From Candidatus Magnetominusculus xianensis (GTDB lineage: Bacteria; Nitrospirota; Thermodesulfovibrionia; Thermodesulfovibrionales; Magnetobacteriaceae), in the NCBI GenBank assembly GCA_001541255.1, contig LNQR01000027.1:1-37225 (forward strand): a DNA stretch of 37,225 nucleotides, in the 5' to 3' direction. Within the stretch, counting starts at the first letter, position 1. Every line of letters begins with the position of its first letter. Below, in pieces: positions 18,436 through 36,191 of the stretch. The translations under genes were made by a program, and so were the position numbers. The notes below the pieces were generated by a model, which worked only from the letters and a program-made list of their open reading frames with translations, was not told the DNA's origin and did not search any database.

Positions 18436-20478
18436 ATGGGAATACAACTGGATGATATAAAGGCTCAAATCGCCTTGCTTGCTGAGGAACTCAACCGCCA
18501 TAACTATCTCTATCATGTCCTTGATGCACCGGAAATTTCTGACGCAGACTTCGACAAAAAGTTTCGCCTGCTGCGCGAATTAGAAACGACATCGGGTTAT
18601 ATCCCCGCTAATTCGCCATCGTTAAGAGTAGGCGCGCCCCCGCTGGATAGGTTTGACAAGGCAGTCCACTCTATCCCGATGCTCTCGCTTGACGATACGT
18701 TTTCATTTGGTGAGGTGGATGAGTTTGACCGCCGTGTCAAAGAATTTTTACAGACACACGATATTAGATATACCGTCGAGCCAAAGTACGACGGCCTTGC
18801 CGTTGAGCTTACATACGAAAACGGTAATCTCACCAGGGCGGCAACCCGCGGCGACGGCATCACAGGCGAAGACGTTACACAGAACGTCAGGACTATTAAG
18901 ACCGTCCCGCTGAGTATTACAGGAGAAGGCGTGCCTGAGCTGCCTGAATTGCCTGAATTGATAGAAATACGCGGTGAAATATACATGACCAAGGCGGATT
19001 TCGACGCGCTTAATGCGAGGCGCGAAGAAAGCGGCAAGCCCCTGTTTGCTAACCCGCGCAACGCCGCCGCTGGTTCAGTAAGGCAGCTTGACCCCGCAGT
19101 TACGGCAAAGAGGAGACTCAGCATCACCTGCTACGGCACAGGGGCTATCAGGGGGCTTACGCTCACCTGCCAATCACAGCTCATAGAATGGTTGAGCACT
19201 CACCTCTTCCCAATCCCGTATCATTTTAAATCTGCTCAGGGGATAGACGAGGTCATTGAATATATAAGGGAAATCGACGCCGTCCGTGCAGAACTACCAT
19301 TTAACATCGACGGCGTTGTTGTGAAAGTGGACGAATTCGACCTCAGACAACGCCTGGGTGAAAAGACCAGGGCGCCGCGCTGGGCAATTGCCTACAAATA
19401 TCAGGCACACCAGGCACAGACACGTATCTTAAAAATAGCGCCAAGCATCGGCAGAACGGGAGTAATCACACCGGTTGCTGTGCTTGAGCCTGTCTCTGTC
19501 GGCGGCGTAACCGTATCAAGGTCTACGCTTCACAACTGGGATGAGGTCAAGCGTATGGGCATTCGCACGGGCGATACTGTGATAATAGAACGGGCAGGGG
19601 ATGTTATTCCTAAGGTTGTTGGGGTTGTCAGCCACGATGCTGTGCTGCAAGTACAGGTTGTCGAACCAGGGCTATGCCCTGAGTGCGGCTCAAGGGCAGT
19701 CAGACAAGAGGGCGGGGCAGTGCTTCGCTGCGCCGGACTGAACTGCCCGCCCCAACTGCAGGGCCGCATTATTCACTTTGCCTCACGCTTGGCGCTCAAT
19801 ATCGACGGGCTCGGTGATAAGATAGCAGCAGCGCTCTTTGATGCCGGGCTGGTCAAAGACTTCACTGATATTTTCAGGCTCACAAAAGATGACCTGATAA
19901 GGCTGCCACGCTTTGCCGAGAAATCAGCTGTTAATCTCATTCAGGCCATTGACAGCGCTAAGTCCACAACTCTGTCACGCTTTATTTATGCCCTCGGCAT
20001 ACGGCACTCCGGGGAGTTTGTCTCTAAGGTCATTGCTGCCAACTTTGAAACTATTGAGGGCCTCTACGGTGTAAGCGTAGAAAGACTTTGTTTGATAAAA
20101 CAACTGGGAGAGAAGACATCGTTGACAATTGCAGAGTTCTTTGCAGAGGAGAATAACATAAAGATTATAGAGACACTCAGGACACTGGGATTAACCCTGA
20201 CAAACCCTGACTACAGGCCAGATATGCCAGAGATGCCAGATATGATAGACGCCGGAAGGAAACTTGCCGGGCTTACGTTTGTCATTACAGGCACACTGCC
20301 AGCCGCACGTAAGCATATAGAAGAACAGATCCGGGCAGCAGGCGGGGTGGTCTCATCCTCAGTGTCCAGACAAACCTCATATCTTATAGCCGGTGACTCC
20401 CCAGGGTCAAAACTAGGCAAGGCCGCCGCCCTCGGCGTTAAGACCGTTTCCTACGATGAGTATCTGGCGCTTTTATGA
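18436..20478 (+). CDS. ligA: NAD-dependent DNA ligase
   Basis: LigA seals nicks in DNA using NAD during replication and repair. The 680-residue protein has the full set of domains: an Ia domain that binds NMN (HNYLYHVLD near residue 22), the adenylation domain with Lys117 in KYDG, an OB fold, and a four-Cys zinc finger (CPECG to CAGLNCPP). A helix-hairpin-helix region and a C-terminal BRCT domain (from about residue 610, LAGLTFVITG) complete it. Length and order are normal for a complete bacterial LigA. Confidence 0.97.
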   Translation: MGIQLDDIKAQIALLAEELNRHNYLYHVLDAPEISDADFDKKFRLLRELETTSGYIPANSPSLRVGAPPLDRFDKAVHSIPMLSLDDTFSFGEVDEFDRRVKEFLQTHDIRYTVEPKYDGLAVELTYENGNLTRAATRGDGITGEDVTQNVRTIKTVPLSITGEGVPELPELPELIEIRGEIYMTKADFDALNARREESGKPLFANPRNAAAGSVRQLDPAVTAKRRLSITCYGTGAIRGLTLTCQSQLIEWLSTHLFPIPYHFKSAQGIDEVIEYIREIDAVRAELPFNIDGVVVKVDEFDLRQRLGEKTRAPRWAIAYKYQAHQAQTRILKIAPSIGRTGVITPVAVLEPVSVGGVTVSRSTLHNWDEVKRMGIRTGDTVIIERAGDVIPKVVGVVSHDAVLQVQVVEPGLCPECGSRAVRQEGGAVLRCAGLNCPPQLQGRIIHFASRLALNIDGLGDKIAAALFDAGLVKDFTDIFRLTKDDLIRLPRFAEKSAVNLIQAIDSAKSTTLSRFIYALGIRHSGEFVSKVIAANFETIEGLYGVSVERLCLIKQLGEKTSLTIAEFFAEENNIKIIETLRTLGLTLTNPDYRPDMPEMPDMIDAGRKLAGLTFVITGTLPAARKHIEEQIRAAGGVVSSSVSRQTSYLIAGDSPGSKLGKAAALGVKTVSYDEYLALL

Positions 20479-20491
20479 GTAACGTTTTTGG

Positions 20492-21121
20492 CTAATACTC
20501 GACGTACTTAGCAATAACCTTGCCGACGATTCTCAGGTTTTTTCTGTCTCTTCCACTGATGATAATGTCGTCGTAGTCAGGATTCAGCGGTTTAAGAAGT
20601 ACGCTGTCCTCAAGTATCTTAAGTTTTTTCAGGGTTACATCGTCGCCAAACTTAGCTACAACATAATCACCGCTTACTGCCGCCAGTGACGGTGAGACGA
20701 CAACAAATTCGCCAGCCTTAAACTCAGGCTCCATACTTCTGCCGTCAACCAGCAAAGCAAAGGCGTGTTCATCCTTAGTGTCGTAAGCAAGCCACTTATC
20801 GGCATAGCCGGGCTGGAAGATGTCAACCGCCTCATGCCACAGGCCAGCCTTAACCCACGAAATAACAGGTACCTTTCTGGCCTTTTTTAATTTCGTGGTG
20901 CTGGTGGCGGCGTCTGAGTAGAAATCCTCCTCTGGGATATCAAGGGCCTTTGCTATGCGGCTGATGTTTTTTTTGCCAAATCCGCGCTTTGCCGTCATAT
21001 AGGCGTTCAGGTTTTGCGGCATGACGCCAATCATCTGAGCCAGTTCTTTTTGTTTGATACCACGCTGCTGAAGTATCCTTATAATCTTATTTCTAACGCG
21101 TTCGTCAATAGCAGTATTCAT
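20492..21121 (-). CDS. Phage CI-like repressor with HTH and S24 autoprotease domain
   Basis: A 209-residue repressor. An XRE-type helix-turn-helix (about residues 16-65, KQKELAQMIGVMPQNLNAYM) is followed by a short linker and an S24/LexA-like peptidase domain. The self-cleavage Ala-Gly lies in SWVKAG (residues 92-93), Ser129 in DGRSMEPEF and Lys165 in VTLKKL. This is the layout of lambda-type CI, which is cleaved during DNA damage. An XRE rather than LexA-type HTH argues against it being the cell's LexA. The ATG at 21121 has no Shine-Dalgarno; a TTG at 21142 is also in frame. It is divergent from the replication-type genes at 21269-22833 and probably controls them through the palindrome at 21214-21235. 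Confidence 0.85.
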   Translation of the reverse strand: MNTAIDERVRNKIIRILQQRGIKQKELAQMIGVMPQNLNAYMTAKRGFGKKNISRIAKALDIPEEDFYSDAATSTTKLKKARKVPVISWVKAGLWHEAVDIFQPGYADKWLAYDTKDEHAFALLVDGRSMEPEFKAGEFVVVSPSLAAVSGDYVVAKFGDDVTLKKLKILEDSVLLKPLNPDYDDIIISGRDRKNLRIVGKVIAKYVEY

Positions 21122-21213
21122 AGTGACTATATGATAACGCAAGTGTGGGCAGAATATACATTATGCAGTATGTTTTTTTATGGCTGCAAGATAAAATAAA
21201 TAATCTTATAAAT

Positions 21214-21235
21214 ACAACAATAATAATATTGTTGT
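21214..21235. promoter_or_regulatory. Probable CI operator palindrome
   Basis: The perfect 9-bp inverted repeat ACAACAATA / TATTGTTGT is separated by four bases. Its last base is the first base of the -35 hexamer of the rightward promoter, so a bound dimer would block RNA polymerase. It lies in the divergent space between the repressor gene and the genes it likely controls. Confidence 0.7.
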
Positions 21236-21263
21236 TGACATATAATATATATTGTGTTATATT
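21235..21263 (+). promoter_or_regulatory. Strong sigma70 promoter of the phage-like replication genes
   Basis: A perfect TTGACA at 21235-21240, a 17-base spacer and TATATT at 21258-21263. The expected start is at 21269-21270, the A or T of the ATG itself, which has no Shine-Dalgarno, so the transcript should be leaderless, as is known for lambda cI from pRM. Confidence 0.8.
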
Positions 21264-21268
21264 AAAGC

Positions 21269-21763
21269 ATGAAACGTGGTTTTACCCGCTCATGGCGTAA
21301 AGAGTTGACCAGCATGGTCTGGTTGATGCCCCCTATCTACCACAGGGTGTTTTATTGGCTGCGGCAGAAGGCTAAGTGGCAGCAGGAGCTTGTACCGACT
21401 GACAGAGGTATTGGTATCTGGCTTGAGCCGGGGATGCTTATCACCAGCTATCAGATTATCTCCGAAGGTGTGGCTTACAGTGACATGGGCGTGCTGAGAA
21501 CACCTTCTAAAAAAACCATCGGAAAGATACTTAAATGGCTGGAGAAAAATGAACAGATTCAGATTGTTGCAGGTCACTACGGCACTACGATACGAATATC
21601 GAATTGGGAAAAGTATCAGTCTGCCAGATATGAAACCCTGTCAAACGCCTCAAAAACTAACACCGCCAACAGTAAACGCAAAAGGCGCAAGGCAGACCCA
21701 TATGCCCATCTTTATATTGAGGAAGTAAACAGCCGTAAGCAGGTACAACGTGGCAGCAACTGA
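21269..21763 (+). CDS. Phage replication-organiser-like protein (winged-helix type)
   Basis: A 164-residue basic protein. Its middle part (TPSKKTIGKILKWLEKNEQIQIVAGHYGTTI then RISNWEKYQ) resembles the winged-helix domain of phage replisome organisers and DnaD-like initiators: a helix pair with a beta wing ending in I-x-N-W-x-x-Y-Q. The C-terminal 30 residues are Lys/Arg-rich. It is transcribed from the strong repressed promoter and overlaps the DnaC-like gene by 14 bases, the usual initiator-loader order of phages. It probably binds an origin, perhaps inside its own gene, and recruits the loader. No residue proves this, so the call rests on resemblance and context. Confidence 0.65.
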   Translation: MKRGFTRSWRKELTSMVWLMPPIYHRVFYWLRQKAKWQQELVPTDRGIGIWLEPGMLITSYQIISEGVAYSDMGVLRTPSKKTIGKILKWLEKNEQIQIVAGHYGTTIRISNWEKYQSARYETLSNASKTNTANSKRKRRKADPYAHLYIEEVNSRKQVQRGSN

Positions 21764-22478
21764 CGGATTAGCTCTGACATCGCGCATTGAGGCAGTTGAG
21801 CTTGAGCGCCAGCGGGTGCGCTTAAAGTGGAAAAATTCCATGAGGAGCAGGATAACAGAGATGATGAGACACTGCGGGGTGCCGCCAAAGTTCGCGGCTG
21901 AACAGGAATCTTCAGTAAGTTCAGGGCTTTGGCATTCAGTTGGCTGTGTTTTCAGCGGGCAGGGGTTATACATCTTTGGCCGCCCTGGTGTTGGAAAGAC
22001 ACATGTTGCTGCATTATGCGTGAGGAGTTTTATCCTTCGTATGGAGCCGGTGTTTCGCGGCGAGACAGGCACTGTGCCGCAGGAGGTTGAGTATCCTTTG
22101 TTTACAACGGCTGCTGATATGCTTCTGTCTGTCAAGGATTCATTTCGGCAGAGGGATTTCTCAGAAAACGATGTATTAAAGCGCTACTCATCAGCACCGC
22201 TTCTCGTATTAGATGACTTAGGGGGTGAAAAGGTCACTGAATGGTCGGCAAAGACGCTGTACACAGTTATTAATCGCAGATATGCCGGAGTGCTGCCGGT
22301 CATTATTACAAGCGCTATGAATCTGAAAGAGCTTGAGGACAGGTATAATGCGCCCGGCAGTCAAACGGGCAGCGCTATGGCACAAAGAATCAGTGAAACA
22401 AGCAAAATATTGAGCCTTCAGGCGGCTCAAAAGAAAACGGCCTCAGGCCGTAAAAGGAGGACAGATGAGAGAGTTTGA
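21750..22478 (+). CDS. DnaC-like replicative helicase loader (AAA+ ATPase)
   Basis: A 242-residue AAA+ ATPase of the DnaC/IstB-like group. Walker A is GRPGVGKTH (residues 77-85, Lys83), Walker B is LLVLDDLGG (151-159), and a sensor-1-like TSAMN follows. The N-terminal 60 residues are helical and would contact DnaB. Such proteins load the replicative helicase at a phage origin. The GTG at 21750 overlaps the previous gene by 14 bases with a weak Shine-Dalgarno; an ATG 30 codons downstream is an alternative start. An IstB helper of an IS21 element is unlikely because no istA is present and the neighbours are phage-like. Confidence 0.8.
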   Translation: MAATDGLALTSRIEAVELERQRVRLKWKNSMRSRITEMMRHCGVPPKFAAEQESSVSSGLWHSVGCVFSGQGLYIFGRPGVGKTHVAALCVRSFILRMEPVFRGETGTVPQEVEYPLFTTAADMLLSVKDSFRQRDFSENDVLKRYSSAPLLVLDDLGGEKVTEWSAKTLYTVINRRYAGVLPVIITSAMNLKELEDRYNAPGSQTGSAMAQRISETSKILSLQAAQKKTASGRKRRTDERV

Positions 22479-22833
22479 GGTGTCAAAAAAAGGGGTAACG
22501 TCTTGTATGCAGTGCAAAAAATACATAAGCTGTAACGAGACATGCGTACATGTCGATAGAATATTGCCGTCTATACCATATTCTCCTGAAATCACTATGA
22601 ATGACAATGTCCTGACGCACGATTACAAGGAGGTATTGAACGCCCTTAGAGAAGGCAAGGAGCAGATTAAAAAGGTCAACATTGGGAAAATCAGACAAAT
22701 TAAAGACGTCAGGCTTCGTGCGATAGCCTTAATGATATACGGCAAAATCAGCATATTTGAGATTGCCGCCCTGCTGGATAAATCTGTCTCGCAGATATAC
22801 AGAATTGTAAACAGGGGGCAGTCACCGGTCTGA
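22465..22833 (+). CDS. Small protein with an N-terminal Cys cluster and a C-terminal helix-turn-helix
   Basis: A 122-residue protein not assignable to a named family. Near the N-terminus CMQCKKYISCNETC offers four cysteines (CX2CX5CX3C), probably a small zinc site. The last 40 residues (RAIALMIYGKISIFEIAALLDKSVSQIYRIV) read as a sigma-region-4-like helix-turn-helix, so DNA binding is likely. An AAAGGAGG lies five bases before the ATG, and the start overlaps the DnaC-like gene by 14 bases. It could be a late regulator of the phage-like module. It ends overlapping the convergent zinc-ribbon gene by 12 bases. Confidence 0.65.
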   Translation: MREFEVSKKGVTSCMQCKKYISCNETCVHVDRILPSIPYSPEITMNDNVLTHDYKEVLNALREGKEQIKKVNIGKIRQIKDVRLRAIALMIYGKISIFEIAALLDKSVSQIYRIVNRGQSPV

Positions 22834-23097
22834 GTTGAGTATCTTCTGGAAGGTTCTGCACGATGGATAAGCGGAGCACCGGAAGCGCACCGCTGCCTCC
22901 GCTCTCATATACAGATGCATGGGCCTTCCACACGCAGGACACTCCGGCCTGTTTGTCAGTTGCTCATGTCTACTGCCAATGGAAAATTGCCTCCCGCAGG
23001 TCAGACACAAACGCCGCTCTTTTCCGGTTCTCGTTCTCCCGTATTTATAGCATGCGTCGTGCCCGCACACAGGGCACCTCACCTCTGATTCCGCCAC
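22822..23097 (-). CDS. Two-module zinc-ribbon protein
   Basis: A 91-residue protein made of two Cys4 ribbons. The first (CPVCGHDACYKYGRTRTGKERRLCLTCGRQF) looks like the N-terminal zinc ribbon of IS1-type InsA and related transposase-like proteins. The second (CPACGRPMHLYMRAEAAVRFRCSAYPSC) looks like the C-terminal zinc finger of type IA topoisomerase. There is no catalytic domain. The start is GTG at 23097 with G-rich and AGGAT sequence just upstream. It lies convergent at the end of the phage-like module and probably belongs to it. The role is presumably nucleic-acid binding. Confidence 0.65.
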   Translation of the reverse strand: MAESEVRCPVCGHDACYKYGRTRTGKERRLCLTCGRQFSIGSRHEQLTNRPECPACGRPMHLYMRAEAAVRFRCSAYPSCRTFQKILNSDR

Positions 23098-23179
23098 ATC
23101 CTACCCCCCCTGACTATGCCGCAACAAGACTTTTCAGCCGCCTGCGCTGCGGATGGCACCCGCCCGTGTGCTGTCGGTG

Positions 23180-23407
23180 TTAAACTGCCTCTACTGCCTT
23201 GACACCAGGCAGGTCAGACTTAAGTTTTGCCTCAATACCGCCCTTTAGAGTCATCATCGACATCGGGCAGGACCCACATGCCCCCATCAGTTTGACCTTG
23301 ACTATGCCGTCGCTTGTTACGTCAACCAGTTCCACGTTACCGCCGTCTCTTTGCAGGGCTGGCCTTATCTGATTCAGTGAATTCTCTACTTGTGCTCTGT
23401 CTAACAT
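23180..23407 (-). CDS. nfu: NifU C-terminal-domain (Nfu) iron-sulfur carrier
   Basis: A 75-residue stand-alone Nfu domain that carries an Fe-S cluster between two subunits and delivers it to target proteins. The defining GACGSCPMS motif supplies Cys44 and Cys47. The N-terminal helix (NQIRPALQRDGGNVELV) is typical of the family. AAGGAGG precedes the ATG at normal spacing. It is divergent from the endonuclease V gene. A carrier of this type suits the many Fe-S proteins in the window. Confidence 0.92.
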   Translation of the reverse strand: MLDRAQVENSLNQIRPALQRDGGNVELVDVTSDGIVKVKLMGACGSCPMSMMTLKGGIEAKLKSDLPGVKAVEAV

Positions 23408-35183: not shown

Positions 35184-35929
35184 TTAGTGCAAGATGAGGT
35201 CTTCGTCCGTTTTGTGTTGAGGGGGGAAAAGCCTCCCACGGAAGTGTTTCTGCTTTAATGTGCTTTGATTGTCTTTGACCGTGAAAAAATAATGTGCTTC
35301 TTTCTCCTTTACCAGAAATTCGGCAGTCTTTCTCTGAGTATGCAGTGCATCAGCCGTTACCGTCATACCGCTAATGTCTACGTCTTTAAGTAATTGCTTT
35401 ACGCCGGGTATTTCTCCGCCACCAGTTGAGAGTGCAATCGTTATGCCCTCATGATGAAAAAAAGCACTTAGCAGGTGAGCCCCTTTTACAGTCTTACCGT
35501 CAATGGCAAGTCCTTCAGTATCATCAGATTTCCTGATGCTGCCTCCCAGTCCGATGATAGTCGTATGAGATTCAGCCTTTATATTCTGGATGCAAGGTTG
35601 TGGACACGTACCCACGGTAAGATTAAAAATCGACTGTTGTTCGCTATGAACTTTAAACGCTTCCACTGTACCGCTGGTATCCAACCTATCCATTTATCAC
35701 GATGCATATTTTTGAATGCTGCCGATGACCAGCCTATCAGGGCTGCTAGTTCCCCTTCCAGTTCCGCAACGTATCTCAGTGATTCCCCAACCGCCCTCTG
35801 AAATCCAAGATAATGATAGCTACTCATCAGTTTGTCCCACTCAGCTGCTTCTCCTACCCTTGCTAATCGTACTTCTATCTCATCTTCTCTCCTCACTTGC
35901 CTTATAGAACTACCTGTCTCATCTGCCAT
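35184..35929 (-). pseudogene. Decayed DUF4338/ISAs1-like transposase
   Basis: Two overlapping frames make one broken gene. The first (35579-35929) encodes the N-terminal DUF4338 part: RREDEIEVRLARVGEAAEWDKLM, YHYLGFQRAVGESLRYVAE, ending RVHNLASRI. The reading then shifts frame near 35580-35690 into the second (35184-35693), which matches an ISAs1-type DDE transposase core. That core has AIDGKTVKGA with the first catalytic Asp, VTADALHTQ with the second, and the FTVKDNQ block. The C-terminal region with the third acidic residue is missing. An internal deletion or fusion, a frame change and a truncated end indicate an inactive remnant. No terminal inverted repeats were found. Confidence 0.8.
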
Positions 35930-36191
35930 GCTTTGTTATACATTAATCTCGTGTGAAAAAAGCCAGTACTTTGTTTTTCTGCTTTCTCTATTCATACTTA
36001 CAGCCCACATTGACATAGTCCTGATTCACTGCTATATTCAAACAATAAATCTATCAGTCTATCAATTACCATACCGGACAGTTATTGTGTCTGTCTCCAT
36101 TATGCTGTAGTCCATTATTCAGACTATGTATTGCTGATTTTGTGGGGAACCACTACGACAAAAAAATATCCCCATATTTTTCTATTAGCGC

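Follow-up and report, generated by a model that had tools for sequence, protein, structure and literature searches.

A likely phage-derived, predicted SOS-controlled repressor switch kept beside ligA in Candidatus Magnetominusculus

Introduction

The CI repressors of lambda- and imm21-type phages, together with LexA, are the closest described counterparts of the repressor in a small block of genes that lies between ligA and nfu in Candidatus Magnetominusculus xianensis. The block occupies positions 20492 to 23097 of a 37,225-nucleotide (nt) stretch of DNA (contig LNQR01000027.1, C27 of its assembly, taken in its entirety and called the window here), and its repressor shares with CI and LexA the same domain order, an Ala-Gly site, a Ser/Lys dyad, and an operator overlapping the promoter of replication genes. 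Unlike lambda or imm21 CI, the window repressor does not lie in a prophage, adjoins ligA in all eight genomes of the genus compared, is paired with the operator-like element TAATAT-N10-ATATTA, and appears to have a second, unlinked target. We think it reasonably likely that the block is the early control region of a temperate virus, derived from phage and kept by the host under predicted control of the DNA damage (SOS) response, with a predicted transcription activator, the Cys/helix-turn-helix (Cys/HTH) protein, as its main local output.

A second counterpart is the Bartonella ROR, described as a run-off replication locus of phage origin with a link to BaGTA (PMC3610622, PMC6899734). It is likewise a short remnant of phage replication functions, carrying initiator-like and helicase-type genes, present genus-wide, with packaging genes elsewhere. 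The present block differs in carrying a CI-like switch and a Cys/HTH gene, in lacking its loader genes in three of eight genomes, and in having no origin that we could find; on this comparison the relationship is one of resemblance, not membership. Paenibacillus larvae phages encode DnaD-like helicase loaders (phrog_2514) that are 38% identical to the window's DnaD-like protein over 85% of its length; the window protein differs from them in being short and in having a lineage motif, DPYAHLYI, at its end. ArpU, RinA, and similar late-gene regulators of phages are small HTH proteins encoded before packaging or head genes. With these, and with the gene transfer agent (GTA) activator GafA (PMC9638019), the Cys/HTH protein shares small size, an HTH, a position before packaging or head genes, and a weak fold match to sigma region 4; it differs in forming its own 23-protein family, with an N-terminal four-Cys motif and no significant match to a known regulator. 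GTAs in general also invite comparison, as the window's own genome has a constrained terminase and portal on contig C54 and major head genes occur at sister-genus loci L134 and L135. In the literature collection searched, we found no paper on prophages or phage repressors of Magnetominusculus, Magnetobacterium, or magnetotactic Nitrospirota, and among the records listed there for domestication or satellites none dealt with this system.

Results and Discussion

The repressor and its promoter

An initial sequence-only reading of the window had placed five open reading frames (ORFs) between ligA and nfu, and all five were recovered at the coordinates it gave (ORF list; Pfam, PHROG, and NCBIfam profiles). 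They were compared across eight genomes of the genus, namely the window's own (G000), G001 to G006 (G004 being Ca. Magnetominusculus sp. LBB02, listed under the same genus as the window), and MYbin6, a metagenome-assembled genome (MAG) assigned to the genus by its 88% repressor match and its ligA locus. Wider comparisons drew on Ca. Magnetobacterium, including Ca. Magnetobacterium casense MYR-1 (G013), and on Ca. Magnetomicrobium cryptolimnococcus (G011). All relatives are multi-contig assemblies, with G001, G002, G003, and G005 64 to 84% complete (G002, 75%) and G004 91% complete.

The first gene (20492 to 21142, minus strand) encodes a CI/LexA-like repressor with above-cut-off Pfam matches to PF01381 (HTH_3, 35.7 bits) and PF00717 (Peptidase_S24, 90.9 bits). 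Met8 of the ORF is invariant in nine aligned orthologues, and the start is therefore probably the conserved ATG at 21121. The best solved relative is lambda CI (3bdn, 4.5e-16), the alignment taking in the stretches that carry Ala-Gly, Ser, and Lys, and the protein is 33 to 34% identical to the imm21/mEp235 and mEp213 repressors; structure prediction gave a poor model, which was not used. The residues that we take, from LexA and CI, to be catalytic are Ala99-Gly100, Ser136, and Lys172 (ORF numbering), and A99, G100, S136, and K172 are all present in each of the eight genomes. The earlier description of a CI-like self-cleaving repressor thus stands, cleavage being predicted from these residues. 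The host also has a RecA gene, and the repressor is predicted to be RecA-cleavable and SOS-controlled.

Divergent from the repressor lies a predicted sigma-70-type promoter, PR (TTGACA-17 nt-TATATT; 21235 to 21263, plus strand), read from the sequence and conserved in the genus genomes compared; a 22-bp partial palindrome spans its -10. This operator-like element, TAATAT-N10-ATATTA (21243 to 21264), covers spacer and -10, occurs exactly once per genome in the seven genomes of the genus scanned, always at PR, and is the same in MYbin6; all of its non-spacer positions are identical across the eight genomes. The perfect operator proposed earlier at 21214 to 21235 is a real inverted repeat with 9-bp arms, but among the genus genomes compared it is present only in the window, and we rejected it in favor of the conserved element at 21243 to 21264. 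A possible weak second operator overlapping that repeat (21210 to 21231, plus strand) lies at the same place in all eight genomes, G002 being the only one in which it exceeds the 99% level of shuffles. Just five bases (21264 to 21268) separate the predicted -10 from the ATG of dnaD, so that the dnaD message would be leaderless.

Elsewhere, the motif was scored with a matrix built from the genus sites, against 300 shuffles of each promoter. At all five repressor promoters of Ca. Magnetobacterium, the score was reached by few shuffles (0, 2, 6, 0, and 6 of 300), and in Ca. M. casense just one site has two mismatches or fewer, directly adjoining that genome's repressor gene. The repressor promoters G016a and G016b did not rise above shuffled sequence (186 and 51 of 300), nor was the motif prominent at G006 C78 (186) or G007 C41 (126). 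This inheritance of the motif suggests that the repressor likely binds the PR element, and the anatomy as a whole supports the earlier claim of a complete, likely phage-derived switch.

Cleavage residues, a clade-specific deletion, and a likely second target

We compared 16 repressors from four genera, leaving aside broken fragments in G009 and S24 proteins of less than 52% identity. The Ala-Gly, Ser, and Lys residues are kept in all nine repressors that adjoin a Cys/HTH gene (the eight of the genus and G011), and Lys172 is replaced by Arg in all seven stand-alone repressors (G007, G013, two in G015, G017, and two in G016), four of which have also lost Ser and one Ala-Gly. No match to Cys/HTH, dnaD, or dnaC was found at the seven stand-alone loci (8 to 16 kb fetched for each). 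The set constitutes a natural domestication experiment, in which self-cleavage residues are kept when the repressor adjoins its partner and lost when the two are apart. In the repressor tree, the genus forms one group and Ca. Magnetobacterium another, the deeper order being unreliable owing to long rows (G011, G016a, G016b, and G015b).

The unit of ligA (18436 to 20478, plus strand), repressor, promoter, Cys/HTH, and zinc-ribbon gene is present in all eight genomes, the G002 contig carrying only the end of ligA. The replication genes dnaD and dnaC are present in five (the window, G002, G004, G006, and MYbin6), so a search for the same block in other genomes recovers the unit throughout but the pair only in part. 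The pair is absent from the locus in G001, G003, and G005, with no dnaD match elsewhere in those assemblies; there, a stretch that matches the final portion of dnaC comes after the promoter, and an open Cys/HTH gene comes next. These three genomes are one clade on the LigA tree (support 100/99; seven genomes of the genus plus G016, G002 being excluded for its partial ligA), and one deletion accounts for the loss. One clade has therefore shed its replication genes yet retained the switch.

The repressor also seems to act at a distance, a possibility not raised in the earlier reading. A scan of 11 genomes for sites with at most two mismatches returned 20, compared with 8 for a reversed control. 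Seven are PR, one is the Ca. M. casense repressor site described above, and two, which are orthologous (G000:C56 and G005:C162, 72% over 1.5 kb), mark a second target; a site at G006:C86 matches that of G005 at 92% over 50 bp, with different neighbors, and the remaining nine are unexplained and near the control level. Sought through a neighboring gene, the second locus was found in six of the seven genomes of the genus searched, and in all six the motif lies 58 to 61 nt before a small operon, with a TTGAC -35. The operon is unlinked to the block and encodes Cys-rich proteins of 46 and 44 amino acids (aa) (G000:C56, L168:1110-1506; orthologues at L169 to L173); in G001, the 46-aa gene was not found and the motif precedes the 44-aa gene. 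The motif score was reached by none of 500 shuffles in G000, G005, G004, and G001, by 5 in G003, and by 24 in G006. A one-mismatch site before a sensor-type gene (G000:C24) is absent from the G005 orthologue and was discarded. We conclude that the repressor likely controls a small regulon that includes this conserved distant target, in keeping with the finding that no other block gene is as constrained (see below).

The Cys/HTH protein as a predicted activator

The fourth gene (22465 to 22833, plus strand) encodes the Cys/HTH protein, with four Cys residues, a helix, and an HTH weakly like sigma region 4. It gave only generic or weak, below-cut-off HTH matches (Pfam, PHROG, NCBIfam) and no profile match to the known late-regulator families ArpU, RinA, and GafA. 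Among 5.8 billion proteins, its family has 23 members, the named ones belonging to Nitrospirae bacteria or Candidatus Magneto- genera except for one Magnetococcales MAG, and the four Cys are invariant in the 22 members aligned. The AlphaFold2 model (mean predicted local distance difference test score, 65.5) is confident only in the C-terminal helices (blocks of 78 to 91). Two paralogues in the window's own genome are informative about position: that on C101 immediately precedes a portal gene (phrog_113, 1e-117), which is followed by head genes, and that on C49 lies upstream of a terminase gene, from which it is separated by a small gene and by two paired genes in the opposite direction. Because these paralogues occupy the position of late regulators, we read the protein as a predicted activator. 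The one viral-contig match, IMGVR_UViG_2728369050_000002, equals C101 in length and genes and is therefore not independent evidence.

These observations suggest the following scheme. PR, a sigma-70-type promoter with its partial palindrome seen over the -10, would be held shut by the CI/LexA-type repressor. Judging from motif inheritance, the repressor would bind both the PR element and the same motif before the unlinked two-gene operon, making it a chromosomal regulator. RecA-triggered self-cleavage after DNA damage, as the conserved residues predict, would then free PR. The deletion and the residue coupling point to the Cys/HTH protein as the local output kept by selection, and it likely activates phage-type late or packaging genes in trans. 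In the five genomes that retain them, the DnaD-like and DnaC-like proteins are predicted to load helicase at some origin. The block thus looks like a domesticated phage switch turned host regulator, in which the replication genes are optional and the regulon is small. If induction is as predicted, a phage switch would serve as a stress regulator in an uncultivated lineage and would bring with it a new family of likely activators.

Several observations weigh against this interpretation. The 16 repressors are related, so that the nine and the seven are not independent events, although G011 and Ca. Magnetominusculus are different genera; in G011, moreover, the repressor is paired with a Cys/HTH gene, yet the motif there stays within shuffles (79 of 300). 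The motif is not prominent at the window's own-genome C54 terminase (56 of 300) or C49 replication gene (114 of 300), nor before dnaD at four loci of Ca. Magnetobacterium (37 to 144 of 300); since it does stand at the repressor promoters of the latter genus, the repressor there looks uncoupled from the replication genes. No second-operon locus was recovered from G002 (75% complete), the G006 site is a weak one, and both small proteins are without known function, a PHROG match, or a Pfam match above cut-off. We infer the activator role of the Cys/HTH protein from gene position and weak fold matches: its best Foldseek matches are mainly to sigma-factor region 4 at E values of at least 0.7, with none at 0.001; the sole solved sequence match below 0.001 is to a 25-residue stretch of the uncharacterized 2lvs (9e-4), with a sigma factor at 0.75; and no target promoter was found for it. 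Finally, dnaD and dnaC are themselves constrained (dN/dS, 0.08 to 0.28), and replication may matter in the genomes that keep them.

Selection on the block

Ratios of nonsynonymous to synonymous substitution (dN/dS) were estimated by the Nei-Gojobori method; dS ranged from 0.1 to 2.4, so that some ratios are rough because of saturation, but all are well below 1. The repressor is under the strongest constraint of any block gene (0.033 to 0.066 in six pairs and 0.018 to 0.061 in ten, the window-G006 pair being common to both sets), below even ligA (0.134 to 0.164, three pairs). The values are 0.083 to 0.191 for dnaD and 0.158 to 0.278 for dnaC (six pairs each), 0.094 to 0.201 for the Cys/HTH gene (six pairs; 0.093 to 0.257 in ten pairs with the deletion clade added), and 0.124 to 0.386 for the zinc-ribbon gene (six pairs). 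The suggestion that the block is kept under selection is therefore well founded.

Also correct, among the window ORFs scanned, was the claim that integrase, packaging, and structural genes are missing. No PHROG of these classes was matched by 34 of the 38 nonoverlapping window ORFs of at least 70 aa or by the zinc-ribbon ORF (E limits of up to 0.1 in one set and up to 1e-5 in others; ligA, nfu, 22863-23183, and 35832-36110 lay outside the scan), and in this respect the window does not resemble a temperate prophage. One could picture a prophage remnant in slow decay, persisting by chance after its integrase, its packaging genes, and, in one clade, its loader genes were deleted. The loss of dnaD-dnaC in three of eight genomes, the shortening of both replication proteins, and the broken portal relatives in G004 are what such decay would leave behind, but the dN/dS of at most 0.39 in every pair for all five genes, the operator unchanged in eight genomes, the conserved second target, and the finding of no disrupted block-gene frame in those genomes render this account unlikely.

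Packaging genes elsewhere in the family

Terminase relatives were found in 11 of 19 family genomes searched, as were portal relatives (11 of 19). In the window's own genome, the terminase and portal of C54 have dN/dS values of 0.069 to 0.108 (six pairs) and 0.066 to 0.116 (three pairs) among orthologues in the genus; the set's third gene is under looser constraint (0.34 to 0.51), and no capsid gene was recognized beside them. The set (G000:C54:2188-6668, L076) is preceded by a hairpin, AAGGAGGGTTACCCTCCTTG, that is also present at C82. In Ca. Magnetobacterium, G013 and G017 have a terminase gene divergent from dnaD-dnaC-Cys/HTH, and in G015 one is divergent from a piece of dnaD at a contig end; the major head genes of G015 and G017 are on separate contigs, and G007 has its terminase and portal together on another contig.

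Packaging genes under selection far from the switch make a split GTA-like system a testable idea. The ligA SOS switch and second operon would set off run-off replication, and the Cys/HTH protein would turn on a separate terminase-portal operon, making a new GTA-like viriform in magnetotactic Nitrospirota; we regard this as rather improbable. G004 has a full ligA block with no terminase match at an E value of 1e-4 or less and portal only in pieces, so that the block seems independent of the terminase and portal genes. Partial copies of the portal C-terminal part lie among lipoprotein-like ORFs at G004:C69, G006:C28, and G001:C543. The window's own genome also has a prophage-like region apparently split over two contigs at the terminase gene (L077/L078; G000:C49 and C150), the G002 relative of which (L084) carries an integrase, and a further prophage-like region with portal and head genes on C101 (L137/L118).

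The replication genes

The second gene (21269 to 21763, plus strand) had been called replication-organizer-like. Its Pfam match to Phage_rep_org_N is below cut-off, but phrog_2514, "DnaD-like helicase loader," is a better match (2e-17), and we call it a short DnaD-like replication-organizer homologue. The protein, of 164 aa, is without the C-terminal part of longer metagenomic relatives (mostly 225 to 331 aa, two with PF09524); a C-terminal motif, DPY-[AS]-[HD]-LYI (window 21695 to 21718; alignments A3 and A5), is common to the DnaD-like proteins of this bacterial family, replaces that longer part, and could possibly serve as a docking peptide. The third gene (21750 to 22478, plus strand) encodes a DnaC/IstB-like AAA+ predicted helicase loader; the profile match agrees with the earlier assignment, loading itself being predicted. 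Its 242-aa product aligns to the C-terminal part of sister-genus proteins of 353 to 472 aa, whose N-terminal region it lacks. The claim that all genes are intact thus holds for the open reading frames, though relatives of both replication proteins are longer. No relatives of either protein were found on viral contigs. The host encodes its own DciA, so that the DnaC-like protein is unlikely to be its only helicase loader, and the predicted helicase-loading function appears dispensable, the pair being optional (five of eight genomes). Near the dnaD-dnaC-Cys/HTH trio of G007 lies a reverse transcriptase gene (phrog_1423; L015:4132-5175).

An initiator-like gene followed by a helicase-loader gene behind one promoter, with a fixed neighbor and both genes constrained, recalls a run-off replication module like the Bartonella ROR, in which the derepressed pair would replicate from an origin within the block and amplify the ligA region. 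A check for such an origin by repeats and by synonymous-site conservation gave no iterons and no run of constraint, although an origin of another kind may exist; the pair is absent in three of eight genomes, its proteins are shortened, and the outer flanks differ between species. We therefore judge a ROR-like role distinctly improbable.

Stand-alone repressors and further alternatives

The recognition region of the repressor is near-identical in three genera, including those repressors that stand alone and are likely cleavage-dead, as would be expected of a superinfection-immunity locus in which the host repressor silences incoming phages that share its operator. Such a role would leave the retained cleavability, the Cys/HTH gene, and the second operon unexplained, and no operator was found at the resident terminase loci tested, so that we consider it highly improbable. 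In three Ca. Magnetobacterium genomes (L052, L054, and L055), a stand-alone, likely cleavage-dead repressor is divergent from a gene that, judged by eye, encodes a large, likely secreted repeat protein.

A switch and replication genes without virion genes resemble the core of some satellites, and a satellite-like element had been suggested earlier. A phage satellite or other mobile element is scarcely credible, however, for a block in which no integrase (among the ORFs scanned) and no attachment-site (att) repeats were found, which lies beside ligA in eight of eight genomes, and which G004 carries although its assembly gave no terminase relative at an E value of 1e-4 or less. The search for att-like repeats framing the block gave only one pair spanning most of it (17 nt, 82%), and this pair lies inside the repressor and nfu coding sequences.

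Neighborhood of the block

The fifth gene (22822 to 23097, minus strand) encodes a 91-aa zinc-ribbon protein, present in all eight genomes, with an above-cut-off IS1/IS1595-type N-terminal zinc domain and no room for a transposase core; a weak PHROG match to a transposase family (1.8e-4) runs through the zinc domain. The block had been described as packed between ligA and nfu (23180 to 23407, minus strand). The former is its constant left neighbor, but, of the stretches fetched, just those of the window and G002 have nfu on the other side, and the outer flanks vary between species. The second G016 repressor copy (L059, G016:C28) has ligA on one side and hslVU-like genes on the other, and such genes also lie upstream of ligA in G006 (L012); the association of repressor and ligA may therefore be older than the genus. 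A two-gene pair adjoins the G006 ligA block (L012:11903-13026), with cognates beside the terminase-portal set of G005 (L081:5396-6474) and similar ORFs at G006:C28, G004:C69, and G001:C543.

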